From Macrocystis pyrifera (lineage: Eukaryota > Sar > Phaeophyceae > Laminariales > Laminariaceae): a stretch of DNA of 64,000 nt. Positions 17,270 through 63,269 of this stretch are shown here, one piece after another. Location: the NCBI GenBank assembly GCA_031763025.1, contig JASSKH010000005.1:4668092-4732091 (forward strand). The letters are read 5' to 3'. The position numbers and the translations under genes are program-made. Each line of letters begins with the position of its first letter. The first letter of the stretch is position 1. The notes under the pieces were generated by a model that was not told where the DNA came from, ran no database searches, and was given only the letters and a program-made list of their open reading frames with translations.

Positions 17270-17384
17270 TATTACGGGGGGACATATTAAATACCAGGTA
17301 GGACCTACCGTAAAGACTAAAACCTATATATTTTCCTATTTTTACTAGCAATATTTGGTCTTATTTACTATGGTCCCCCGTAGT
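17270..17384 (+). mobile_element. family A element with CCAGGTA micro-insertion
   Basis: Complete, TATTACGGGGGGACATATT to GGTCCCCCGTAGTA. The left arm reads AATACCAGGTAGGACC where the consensus is AATAGGACC, an exact 7-bp insertion at TA (17292-17300). Confidence 0.9.
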
Positions 17385-17805
17385 AGTGCGGCCTCGCGGA
17401 TTGCGCCGTCTTAGTTGGGATGTTGTGGCCACGGGTTGGGGGGGGGCAGTGAGGTGTACGGGCACAAGAGGGGGGACGCCGACTATCTCAGAGGGCGTTC
17501 GGTCACTGCGGGTGGGCGTGGAACGTCGGAAGACGAGGCAAGGGCAATCGTGAATCGAAACAGGTGAGGCCCTTTGAAACCCAGTACTCCCATACACCCA
17601 CACATCTAGCCTGCAAGGCCGACGAAACCTCCAGACAAGAGGGAACGTCCCAGAGTCGAAAAGAAAGAGGGAAGAAGTAAAGGATTCGATGCATATATAT
17701 CACCGGAGCTACCGCCACATCCCTGACGTGAGGGGGGGGGGGAAGGCCGGGGGAGGGGAAGGGAAGGGGCGGAGAGGACGGGGGGGGGGGGGGGTAATTG
17801 TTGTC
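17385..17805. other. G-rich unassigned spacer
   Basis: Several G runs including 17780-17794. No recognisable gene. Confidence 0.4.
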
Positions 17806-18312
17806 ATGCATGGCCGCAGTCGTATGACCATAGACCCTCGCTTGCCTTCAATGCCGGGACGGAACACGTCGAGTTTTCACCGAGCAGGCAGACTTTGCTT
17901 GCACCAAGCGCGAAGCGCCATGAGATGTTCGGCGAGTCGCATGAAGGGTGAGCTGCATCCTACTAAGGACCACTTTAGAGGCGGGTTTTCTTGCATATGG
18001 ATGACAGCATCGATGAACTGATTTAGTTTCTGGTGTGGCCACTTCCAGAAACAGCAATGAATGGGTTTACTATGTAACTGCCTCGTGGGTGCCTCACCAT
18101 ATACACACTACGTGATACGATCATCCCCCTTGTGCGAAGTAAAGGTTCTCCCCGCACAAAAATGATCTAACTCGACCGCAAGACGTGGTAACCGCAAAAA
18201 AAAAACAAAAAACGGTGCCCTGGCTATCTAGCTCACGCAATGAGAGGCGTGTTTAATAGCGTCGTCGCCAACCGACGCCAACCCAACCTATATATATATA
18301 CTTGGAAGGGGG
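17806..18312. repeat. family I long dispersed repeat, copy 2
   Basis: Matches 1938-2470 over its full length in the same orientation with many substitutions and small indels. The left side starts immediately after a G run, like the 18326 and 37870 fragments. Confidence 0.75.
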
Positions 18313-18325
18313 GGGTTGGGGGGGG

Positions 18326-18364
18326 TACTCATTGATATGCATCGCCGTAGTCGTATGACTATTG
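18326..18364. repeat. family I fragment
   Basis: TATGCATCGCCGTAGTCGTA after a G-rich run, the start of family I repeated a second time. Confidence 0.55.
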
Positions 18365-18958
18365 GGGGGTGGGGAGGGCGGAAAAACGTAACGTCGAAAA
18401 CACGGGACACAAAAAACGCACAATCCCGTGCCTTACTTCAGGTGGCGAGATTCCCAGAACGAACTAAAACGCCTCACCAGCGAAAAAAGGGGGTCGGTCA
18501 GCATAACAAAACAGAGAAGGAAGGCATGTGGCTACAATAAACGCCAAGCGGCGAAAACGCTGAGTGAGGTACTACACAAATCACTCAAAGGGTAGTCTTT
18601 ATTTAACCTTGAACCTGTCCCCAAGTCTTCACACCGGCGCACGCAAAAGAGAAGATCGTACAAAAAGGTGCCTAAAGAGTGGGCACCGGAAAAAAAAAAC
18701 AACATTTTTTTTCTCGATAAAACGAAATCCGGATAGGAGGTGTTTTCTAAAATAAATGAAAAACCCGTTATTAGTAATAGTCGTTTTTTTTTTTCTAGTT
18801 TTTTTTTTCAGGCCACCGAACCAATGGAAACCAGATGAGCGCTTTTCTTATTTTTCTGCAAGGAAGGGACGTTTTTCCTATTTTGTTGTCGCGTATTCCC
18901 ACAAAGCGCGTGCCTCATTCTCTTCGTTACCTTGTTGTACGCTCAACATTTTCCCCAC
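18365..18958. other. unassigned spacer
   Basis: A-rich and T-rich tracts (18690-18720, 18786-18810). No feature recognised. Confidence 0.3.
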
Positions 18959-19069
18959 TATTACGTGGGACCATAGCGAATAGAACCAAATAGTGTTAAT
19001 AGTAAAATAGGTAAATGCACAGGTTTTTGTGTGTACCGTAGGTCCTATTTACTAGGGTCCCCCGTAATA
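18959..19069 (+). mobile_element. family A element
   Basis: Complete, TATTACGTGGGACCATAG to GGTCCCCCGTAATA. The core carries an extra ATA. Confidence 0.85.
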
Positions 19070-19317
19070 GAGTTTTTTTTTTAACACGCTGTTCATTGCT
19101 GCACGCTCGTCTTTCCGTGTGGATGCTTTACCGTATACCAACGCTTATTATTCTTACCTTGAATCAGAACCGATCACCCGTACCACGCCTCTGGTGGATT
19201 TCCAAGAACCGCCGCCGGTGAACCGTCTCTTCTCAAACGGCTTGCCAACCTCTTTATTATTTCTTCCGTCCCTTTACTATATTTGCCCTTATCCCTACTG
19301 TCCTTACTTGTCGTGTC

Positions 19318-19440
19318 TTAGGTCCGGGGTCACATAGCAGGCTCTTCTGCCTCATCCACACCACGGTTGGTGTCTTGCATTTTTATTGCTCCACAAGACT
19401 TCAGCTCTTTCTTCGCTCGTCGATTCGCACCGAATTGGGG
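19318..19440 (+). repeat. family E repeat
   Basis: TCCGGGGTCACATAGCAGGC, ACAAGACTTCAGCTCTTTCT and TCGTCGATTCGCACC match family E blocks. Confidence 0.6.
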
Positions 19441-60605: not shown

Positions 60606-60694
60606 GCCGTACACCCATTGTCCGTCCTAAATATTTATTCAGAGAGGTACTAATTCTACTTCTGTACGGTTACAGACCACAGACTGTGAGACGG
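60606..60694 (+). repeat. family C2 repeat, partial
   Basis: CACCCATTGTCCGTCCTAAA, AGAGAGGTACTAATTCTACT, GACCACAGACTGTGAGACGG. Confidence 0.65.
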
Positions 60695-60745
60695 GAAATA
60701 AAAAAAAAAAAAATATATGTACAAGTATATTCAAGGTAAATCAAG

Positions 60746-60790
60746 CGAGATAGATGCCAACGTGCCGGGTACGAAACCACAACAGCACAA
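60746..60790 (+). repeat. family D fragment
   Basis: GATAGATGCCAACGTGCCGG, GTACGAAACCACAACAGCAC. Confidence 0.45.
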
Positions 60791-60799
60791 GCCACTCGT

Positions 60800-61657
60800 A
60801 CTGGAAAAATAAACACAAGCGATAACCAAAACGTAAGAACATTACAACGGCAGAAGGATGACAGAGGAAAAAAAAAAAAAAAAACAAGTTCTGCGACTGT
60901 AACAGCTCACAGCCCATGGCCATCTACTCTATTAATAGTCGTGTGCTGCAATCTGCATTGGTGCGGTGGTGAAAGGCAAAGGACGGAGCGCTCGAGGTCT
61001 GTATTCCCTATTCTCTGTACATTGACGGCGACGCAGGCCCTCTCTTGCCGCCTTCTCCACCGCGCAGCTCGCGCCTTTATCCGGTGCACAGAGCTTGAGC
61101 GCAGCGCCAGCATCTTTCACCTCTCGTCTGATTTTGTGGCATACTGCCTGGTACAGCTGTTCCCGCACCACCAAGCATCAGGTAGGGGCTCTGGCGACGT
61201 GTAAAATACCTGGTACCTGCGTGTACGCCCATAAAAGGTTCCGCACACGGCGCCACAGCGACGAGTAGTGTTGTAGAGATAGATAGATGTGTGTATTTGT
61301 CGCGAGCAGATGTGCGTATTTACCGCAAGCTGGTGGGGTCGGTGGCTCGACATGTACCTGTGCGTGTGTATGACCGCGCGAGGGTTGCCGCGAGGTGGTC
61401 GCGCGACCGGTCTCATCAGGAGACAGCCACCAGGGGTATGCATATAATACACAGCAGACGCGAAAATAGAGCGACTTATTTATTTTTCTCGCTATCAACA
61501 TGTTTATTGGCGCTCCAACACTTGAGTCCTATGCCGCCTAACCCATGGTTACTTCCTTCTCGGGGGTGCTATTATTATTAGTAATGAATACTTTTAGTAT
61601 GGATTGCTTTTTTTTTTTTTTTTTTTTCAGCCTTTCCCCCCGCCTCCGTCTCCGTCT
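60800..61657. other. unassigned region
   Basis: Minus frames of 107-111 codons overlap without domains. TACCTGGTA at 61207, TATTAATA at 60930. Confidence 0.3.
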
Positions 61658-61745
61658 CCTTCTCGAAGGGATATGCGTGGTCGATGGTCAAATGATTCAA
61701 GGCAAGCAACAAATGAGTACCTGCCCCCCCCTCCCTCCTCCTAGT
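61658..61745 (+). repeat. family J dispersed repeat
   Basis: TCTCGAAGGGATATGCGTGG, TCGATGGTCAAATGATTCAA, GGCAAGCAACAAATGAGTAC. Confidence 0.65.
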
Positions 61746-62796
61746 GTCCGCCCTAGGCTCGCTGGTGGCAACGACTGCCGCACGTCTTTGTTCATAAAAT
61801 AGCCATCGAATAAAAATGCTAAAATATCTCCTTTACACTTTTTCGTTGGTTCGTTCAGCTTGCGCAACTCTTGCTTCATTTCACGGAGATGTGCGCTCGT
61901 GTGGTGCTAATTTGCCGAGCCTGTGTTTTTGTTTTTTATTTCTCTTCCCCACAGCAAGCCATCAAGTGTGGAACAGAGGTGTGTGCTTGCTTGTTGGTGT
62001 TGATTGACCGAGGCGTGGGCGGCAAGCCTTGTGCGCGTATACTATTTTCTAATGTCGATGTCATTTGCACGAAGTACCAGGAACCAGGTTTAAAAATAGG
62101 CTCACTCGTGTTACGTACGTGGGCATGGCATTGCATTGGCCAACTTCCCTAGGGCCATTGTCATCGGAGAGCCATCGGAGAGCTTTTTTCGCTCCATGTT
62201 ACTGGAATAACCTCCATATTTGCGAAACAGCTCTCCCAAATATACGAAATTTTAACCGAGGGTAAAAGTATCAGGAGAGTTAAATTTCACAGCTTTTGAA
62301 ATTATTTAACATAAAAAAGGGGGGGAAAAAAGCTCTCCCGACAATAACGATCCCTAGACCAGCAATTATGTTTTTTTTTTTTCTCTTTTAACAGTGTTTT
62401 TTTTGTTTTGCTTTTTCAGCGATATCCGAAGCCCAAAAATCAAAAATCAGAACCGTCTGTTATCGGGTAGAAGATCATCCATCTTTTGGTCTCAGTTCCT
62501 AGACGGGGTAAAAATATGCGAATCCTGTCGGAACCGAGCCCAGTTCCTTGCGGTCGCTCGTGCCTCGAGGGGAAATGAGAGATACTTGATTTGAATCATG
62601 TCTGCTATCACTACAGCAGCAGTGCTACTGCCCATCTTCCCCGAGTATACCCGTCACCCACGCCGAAGTATCACACCTACAGCGAGCTGTACCTACGTCG
62701 GGCTAGGGCGCTCGTGTGAGATATGGCCTGTCCCTCGCGTGGAAGCGATAGCAGCAGCAGTAGCGACGGTAACGGCAGCAGCGATAGCAATTCGAC
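61746..62796. other. unassigned region
   Basis: A family D-like scrap at 62115-62140. A 66-codon plus frame at 62394-62594 follows a T run and CAG (possible 3' splice-site-like context). No domain recognised. Confidence 0.3.
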
Positions 62797-62850
62797 GCAG
62801 CAGCAGCAGCAGCAGCAGCAGCAGCAGCAGCAGCAGCAGCAGCAGCGGCA
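62797..62850. repeat. CAG microsatellite
   Basis: About 17 CAG triplets with one CGG. Confidence 0.95.
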
Positions 62851-63269
62851 GCAGCAGAGAGCAGGAACAGCGATGGCGAGTCGACGTCGCAGGCGAAAAT
62901 CCACTCCTGCTTGGATGCCGAAACCAACTCTCGCGGCGGCGCAGCGACCGTTGGCTTTGCTTGCCTTGACGCAAACAAGTTGGACCCGTACCGTATATAA
63001 CCAGTTTTTCCTGAATCATACCAGGTACCTGGTAACCCGTAAAAAAAAATGTCCTTTTTTTTTTCGTGTACGTACATATTTCTGGATCCTCGAAACCACA
63101 GCGAAATGATCGCCAGAAAATCACGGTTAAAAAAAATCCCCGTCATAATTGGCCTCCGACTGGTGCCTGGTATAATATATTACTACCGCACTACTGTTTT
63201 AGAATGCAGAAACCTAAGTATGACCTCAATTCCTACACCAGGAGTGCAGTACTGGAGGGATAGCTTTTG
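62851..63269. other. unassigned spacer
   Basis: Carries the double TACCAGGTACCTGGTA at 63019-63034. No gene recognised. Confidence 0.35.

Follow-up and report, generated by a model that had tools for sequence, protein, structure and literature searches.

A 7-bp insertion repeated at TA dinucleotides across the genome of Macrocystis pyrifera is probably the excision footprint of an element working like Tc1/mariner

The stretch of DNA analyzed here, referred to as the window, comprises 64,000 nucleotides of the kelp Macrocystis pyrifera (assembly GCA_031763025.1, contig JASSKH010000005.1; C219:4668092-4732091 in our numbering), and it is rich in copies of the 9-mer TACCWGGTA, which we call the scar. 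When ten long open reading frames from it were compared with Pfam, only DurN and a KIN17 zinc finger were matched, both below the family cut-offs, and Rfam gave 0 matches. The window also carries many copies of a palindromic repeat of about 110 bp with ends CTATTACGGGGGACC, named family A, in which no clear target duplication outside the ends was found in 53 copies. Exact scars number 34, at 30 loci, divided into 17 copies of TACCAGGTA and 17 of TACCTGGTA; these are one 9-mer seen from opposite strands, therefore the variable central base W is by itself no evidence of mismatch repair. The count of 34 reported in the initial annotation was thus reproduced, and an order-3 Markov model predicts about 0.85 copies by chance. 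The first copy had been placed at 17292, too late by three copies (1140, 7641 and 16093), and the first 24 kb are poor in scars, with only 4 of the 30 loci (a fraction of 0.0016 of random draws was that low). Four of the loci are tandem pairs, at exactly the positions previously given for them (25165, 33991, 41777 and 63019). The scars of the window are the following; none has an assigned strand, and each was recognized by exact match unless otherwise indicated.

1140..1148, scar TACCAGGTA
7641..7649, scar TACCAGGTA
16093..16101, scar TACCAGGTA
17292..17300, scar TACCAGGTA within family A copy 17270-17385, other copies empty (exact match and paralogue alignment)
24009..24017, scar TACCTGGTA
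25165..25180, tandem scar, inverted form TACCAGGTACCTGGTA
26581..26589, scar TACCAGGTA
27904..27912, scar TACCTGGTA
33169..33177, scar TACCTGGTA within family A copy 33140-33254, other copies empty (exact match and paralogue alignment)
33818..33826, scar TACCTGGTA
33912..33920, scar TACCTGGTA
33991..34006, tandem scar, direct form TACCAGGTACCAGGTA
35456..35464, scar TACCAGGTA within degenerate family A copy 35407-35485, other copies empty (exact match and paralogue alignment)
35675..35683, scar TACCAGGTA
35768..35776, scar TACCAGGTA
38248..38256, scar TACCAGGTA
39019..39027, scar TACCAGGTA
39571..39579, scar TACCTGGTA, just beyond family A copy 39455-39564 (exact match and alignment)
41777..41792, tandem scar, direct form TACCTGGTACCTGGTA
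45015..45023, scar TACCTGGTA
45961..45969, scar TACCAGGTA
47588..47596, scar TACCTGGTA, with a weak empty homologue, diverged and with gaps nearby, at 50679-50759 (exact match; failed the stricter test described below)
49441..49449, scar TACCTGGTA
51505..51513, scar TACCAGGTA within family A copy 51433-51528, other copies empty (exact match and paralogue alignment)
54195..54203, scar TACCTGGTA
55568..55575, variant scar TACCAGTA, one G shorter, within family A copy 55550-55623 (alignment)
56803..56811, scar TACCTGGTA
58502..58510, scar TACCAGGTA
59615..59623, scar TACCTGGTA
61207..61215, scar TACCTGGTA
63019..63034, tandem scar, inverted form TACCAGGTACCTGGTA

The abundance of the scar extends to the whole genome. 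In the host assembly (537,376,219 bases in 223 contigs), 121,279 exact copies of TACCWGGTA were counted against 2,421 of the reversed pattern used as a control, which corresponds to about one copy per 4.4 kb. Many of the analyses below used a sample of 262,092 bases made up of the window with its flanks plus two arbitrarily picked stretches (C219 and C200). This sample contains 64 scar copies, and their density ranges from 35 in 82 kb to 5 in 80 kb. Apart from these, the related sequence TACCGGTA appears 9 times in the window where 1.6 are expected, including five copies, at 16015, 21992, 24576, 25335 and 34084, that lie outside the 3-4 kb tandem array; these copies are possibly scars without the central base.

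The origin of the scar can be read from family A. The alignment of 39 copies from the window (mean identity to the consensus, 0.89) revealed that in four of them, at 17292, 33169, 35456 and 51505, CCWGGTA has been added, each time at a different TA of the consensus, as the initial annotation had recognized; the copies that are empty at the same TA support insertion at this dinucleotide. The accompanying claim that nothing else had changed is true for the junctions of 17292, 33169 and 51505, and fails for 35456, a degenerate copy that lacks one C beside the junction and in which the aligner broke the insertion into two parts. Unrelated substitutions are also present in the scar-bearing copies. 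A fifth copy has the 6-bp insertion CCAGTA (TACCAGTA), the shortened form that had been noticed near 55569 and that our alignment locates at 55568. Under a stricter test, a homologue spanning the junction was found within the sample for 10 of its 60 loci, and six of these ten (five in family A and one in another repeat) have at least one homologue with a plain TA and no nearby gap; the four loci for which no homologue passed include 47588. The site that does not belong to family A, C219b:20181, has three empty homologues. In total, empty sites support four repeat copies of the window and two loci outside it. In the whole genome, a single TA of family A was found to carry the exact scar 15 times (nine in the A-form and six in the T-form; control, 0), and length variants in this family include four TACCAGGGTA, from the anchored places described below, and the one TACCAGTA of the window. 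The change from TA to TACCWGGTA is, in consequence, a true 7-bp insertion accompanied by the duplication of TA.

The TA dinucleotides that received a scar are not a random subset. With symmetric scoring, the sites of the window favour A at -6, A at -3, C at -2 and A at -1 (0 of 1,000 random draws of TA reached this preference), and the score fixed on the window replicates at 29 loci outside it (4.66 vs 3.22; 0 of 5,000 draws). The consensus published for Tc1 insertion is CAYATATRTG (PMC9635669, PMC8525568). The scars of the 60 loci match this consensus at 3.73 of 8 positions, against 2.58 for 14,350 other TAs, a value never reached in 20,000 draws nor in 5,000 draws matched for GC content. Moreover, half-sites of the type that is non-permissive for Himar1 are rarer at scars (5 of 120) than in the background (9.9%).

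Tandem scars provide a test of the same preference. The genome contains 5,620 of them, of which 1,409 are TACCAGGTACCTGGTA and 609 are TACCTGGTACCAGGTA, the two inverted forms that together account for 2,018, and 3,602, obtained by subtraction, are direct. When the target weights derived from the 60 loci were applied to the outer flanks of the tandems, the predicted AT:TA ratio of the inverted forms was 2.32 (bootstrap interval 1.46-3.74), in effect the preference for A over T at -3, and the observed ratio is 2.31. If landing were random, 248 inverted tandems would be expected; applying the weights brings the figure close to 1,000, and a correction for clustering (factor 1.85, from 26 bins of 10 kb) brings it to about 1,850, compared with the 2,018 that were observed. 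The suggestion that tandems represent a second event at the TA created by the first one is thus sustained for the inverted forms, whose order bias was predicted; it is less secure for the direct forms, which exceed the model about twofold and to which slippage may contribute. The preference is symmetric, replicated, similar to that of Tc1 and predictive of tandem order, and for these reasons it supports the action of a TA-targeting transposase.

The scars are not all recent. In the window, 32 sequences differ from the scar by a single substitution where 16.6 are expected; the surplus of about 15, set against 34 exact copies, represents by a hand calculation about 0.05 substitutions per site. 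An earlier count of 10 against 8.9, from which we had considered that all the scars were young, had skipped the changes in the two TAs, and this idea was dropped. Genome-wide, the excess of one-mismatch forms over the reversed control is 119,969, for 118,858 exact scars above control, which would give about 0.12 per site and about 3 x 10^5 scars formed over time if they are of a single age and the control is fair; the estimates from the window and from the genome disagree.

Taking together the insertion, the TA duplication, the target preference, the genome-wide number of scars and the order bias of inverted tandems, all of which are observed, we consider it probable that TACCWGGTA is the excision footprint of a cut-and-paste element that acts in the manner of Tc1/mariner; the excision, the joining of the flanks, the ends of the element and its transposase are what we infer from them. 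According to this proposal, the element would insert at a TA resembling CAYATATRTG, duplicating it, and would later depart; the broken flanks would then be rejoined retaining one TA from each side and five bases, CC(A/T)GG, from the ends of the element. By analogy with Sleeping Beauty, the cut could leave a five-base 3' overhang (from ends CCAGG or CCTGG) in which CC anneals with GG around a central mismatch; alternatively, two to three bases could be retained from each end, as in the footprints of plant mariner-like elements. The two routes are indistinguishable with our data, and both imply element ends starting with CC. The scar itself would be a better-than-average target, given that it supplies another TA at a distance of seven bases and, on one side, an A at -3, and it could therefore be hit again to form tandems. 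The element would now be rare, decayed or lost. Regarding the hallmarks of the IS630-Tc1-mariner superfamily, insertion at TA with TA duplication is found, on scars rather than on an element, together with a symmetric preference like CAYATATRTG; those of piggyBac, a TTAA target and seamless excision, do not correspond to what is seen here, since insertion is at TA and leaves 7 bp behind. Membership in Tc1/mariner is not claimed, because the element ends and the transposase are unseen.

Several results weigh against this proposal. The preference at -2 is weak at the 29 outside loci. Position -7 relative to the target is occupied by a TA in 33 of 120 half-sites (window plus sample loci L005-L024) against 6.4% in the background, and this preference is absent from the Tc1 consensus; the five bases between both TAs resemble CCWGG only at background level, which means that mere decay of neighbouring scars does not account for it. 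Direct tandems, 3,602 in number, reach about double what is expected after adjustment for clustering, and the model calls for equal numbers of direct and inverted forms; slippage or a link between adjacent W bases probably adds some of the direct ones. The remaining points come from the search for the parent element. The 262-kb sample contains 50 pairs TACCWGG...CCWGGTA, with both ends exact and 60-6,000 bp apart, none of which forms a CCWGG-ended inverted pair: their best end similarity, 9 of 20, is within the shuffled null. A pattern anchored in family A (TACCWGG not followed by NA) retrieved 14 places (control, 0), read up to about 250 bases, and five of them (L036, L043, L044, L046 and L047) are not family A. 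The other nine, four TACCAGGGTA, three altered junctions (L037, L040 and L048) and two, L038 and L039, with 17 to about 50 additional bases ahead of the resuming family A end, show no recognizable element. The genome gave 0 matches to PF13358, whose control matched in 3 genomes. At three loci with a pogo-type DDE_1 match, read in part (L025, L026 and L052), there are no inverted repeats starting with CCWGG. Of what was put forward in the initial annotation, insertion at TA is backed by empty paralogues and a TA-targeting transposase by the target preference, but the parent element with termini CC...GG was not found, and the transposon itself stays a proposal; the search for TA-flanked elements suggested there, run for CCWGG ends on the 262 kb and at the nine family A places, yielded none.

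PF01359 also gave 0 matches, a result that is uninformative given that its control matched nowhere. TA-flanked inverted repeats with an end starting with CC consist, in the 262 kb, for the most part of paired family A fragments or paired scars, although some others are present, e.g. C219b 26747-27164. The pogo-type DDE_1 domain (PF03184) has 39 matches in the genome, many of them without stops, and PF24964 has five; no match to either is linked to CCWGG ends. The sequence preceding two DUF7769 matches (L053 and L054; about 660 upstream bases read) itself includes a scar and a tandem scar. A TA-flanked pair of L025 with 11 of 12 positions matching, which starts with CAGCAGTA, was not taken as an element end since this motif is common (the 9-mer ACAGCAGTA occurs 24 times in the window). 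The DDE_1 copies L026-L032 sit in a duplication of more than 10 kb that also bears a scar, and because they lie inside it their element ends are unreadable. As separate observations, the open frames L026-L035 are inside this duplication, which is 96-99.6% identical among the three copies that were read, two of them no more than 0.4 Mb from the end of a scaffold, and L026 has an HTH_Tnp_Tc5 match barely above its cut-off.

The same data can be confronted with other explanations. The 7 bp could be added directly, with no element leaving, by a TA-specific enzyme such as a domesticated transposase retained by the host, or by an abortive integration that leaves the tip; in a related version, developmental excision would leave only footprints in the sequenced genome. 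The failure to find a parent at the anchored places or among the 262-kb pairs, the more than 10^5 copies of a short product, and the pogo-type DDE_1 open reading frames, some of them in the duplication of more than 10 kb, all speak for this possibility; nevertheless, we know of no enzyme that adds CCWGGTA directly at TA, the targets follow the ordinary Tc1/mariner preference, and the length variants resemble end-joining products, hence we regard it as unlikely in either version. We are equally doubtful that the scars were left on excision by a TA-targeting group outside Tc1/mariner proper (the pogo type, or other TA-duplicating groups such as Mirage): the genome has 39 matches to DDE_1 and none to PF13358, as this explanation would have it, but the target preference fits Tc1 and Himar1, and the three DDE_1 loci that were read, of the 39 matches, have no inverted repeats starting with CCWGG.

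Explanations that dispense with transposition fare considerably worse. Replication slippage, or the spread of a simple 7-base repeat, agrees with the excess of direct over inverted tandems (3,602 vs 2,018), yet single insertions in family A have no adjacent CCWGG as a template, and slippage cannot yield inverted tandems, which obey the target model; as a general source of the scars it is very improbable. A protein-binding motif under selection would account for a palindrome with symmetric flanks; against it, and against an ancestral sequence lost elsewhere, the exact 7-bp insertion arises at different TAs of one repeat, and one-mismatch forms exceed the control, so that copies appear to decay. 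We give hardly any credence to these two ideas.

The window includes other repeats. An insert of 927 bp with a TTA duplication and ends GGC(T/C)GTTTCCTATGCGGTTCGA, resembling PIF/Harbinger, interrupts the family A copy at 54579-55623. Two copies, 91% identical, of a repeat of about 0.9 kb with inverted ends GGG...GCCAAAATCAGGTATACC lie at 4776-5668 and 28597-29456. A short repeat occurs at 6361-6445, 27351-27443, 41913-42019 and 44799-44880, and its translation includes FRTAVPFWGQ...LSPKRDCG, common to 124 predicted proteins at E<=10 (source ena; 22 read), which are apparently translated repeats. In viral contigs no loci were obtained for two family A patterns, nor for pattern P0001.

In the open-licence literature searched, judging the matches listed by title and start of abstract, no relevant work was found on TACCAGGTA or on TACCTGGTA with transposition, nor was anything relevant found in it on excision footprints in algae. 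A study of Ectocarpus transposons reports 17 Mariner/Tc1 families with 11,912 copies, and the words "footprint" and "excision" do not appear in its main text (PMC12477816). Studies of excision footprints usually deal with few loci at a time; in this genome more than 10^5 nearly identical ones are available with the element unseen, so that target choice and end-joining by the host could be read from the scars alone. If the scars do result from excision, departures may far outnumber the remaining copies, which would challenge the tracking of elements by their copies. The predicted terminus starting with CC, probably CCWGG, could be used to seek the element in kelps.

Among known systems, elements of the Tc1 type leave the footprint TAC(A/T)GTA, and in ciliates TA-bounded sequences with Tc1/mariner kinship are eliminated in somatic nuclei restoring a single TA. 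The kelp scars differ from the latter in that TA is doubled, with CCWGG in between. With Sleeping Beauty and Tc1 they share the TA target and its duplication, and the target consensus CAYATATRTG. Sleeping Beauty generates 3-nt 3' overhangs at the donor site, and its footprint is the same as the overhang (PMC7827188); in contrast, the kelp scars have five bases, CCWGG, between the TAs, and are known without their element. For Stowaway, footprints with 2-4 bp next to one TA and 1-2 bp next to the other are described in one cereal gene, as well as an insertion inferred to have occurred at an earlier footprint, and Osmar5 leaves fragments of 1-4 bp (PMC1925063). The kelp scars are alike in carrying what may be short end fragments between two TAs, and five bases fall within the sizes given there for Stowaway; whereas those footprints are heterogeneous and come from few loci, the kelp scars present a nearly uniform 5-bp form at more than 10^5 places.

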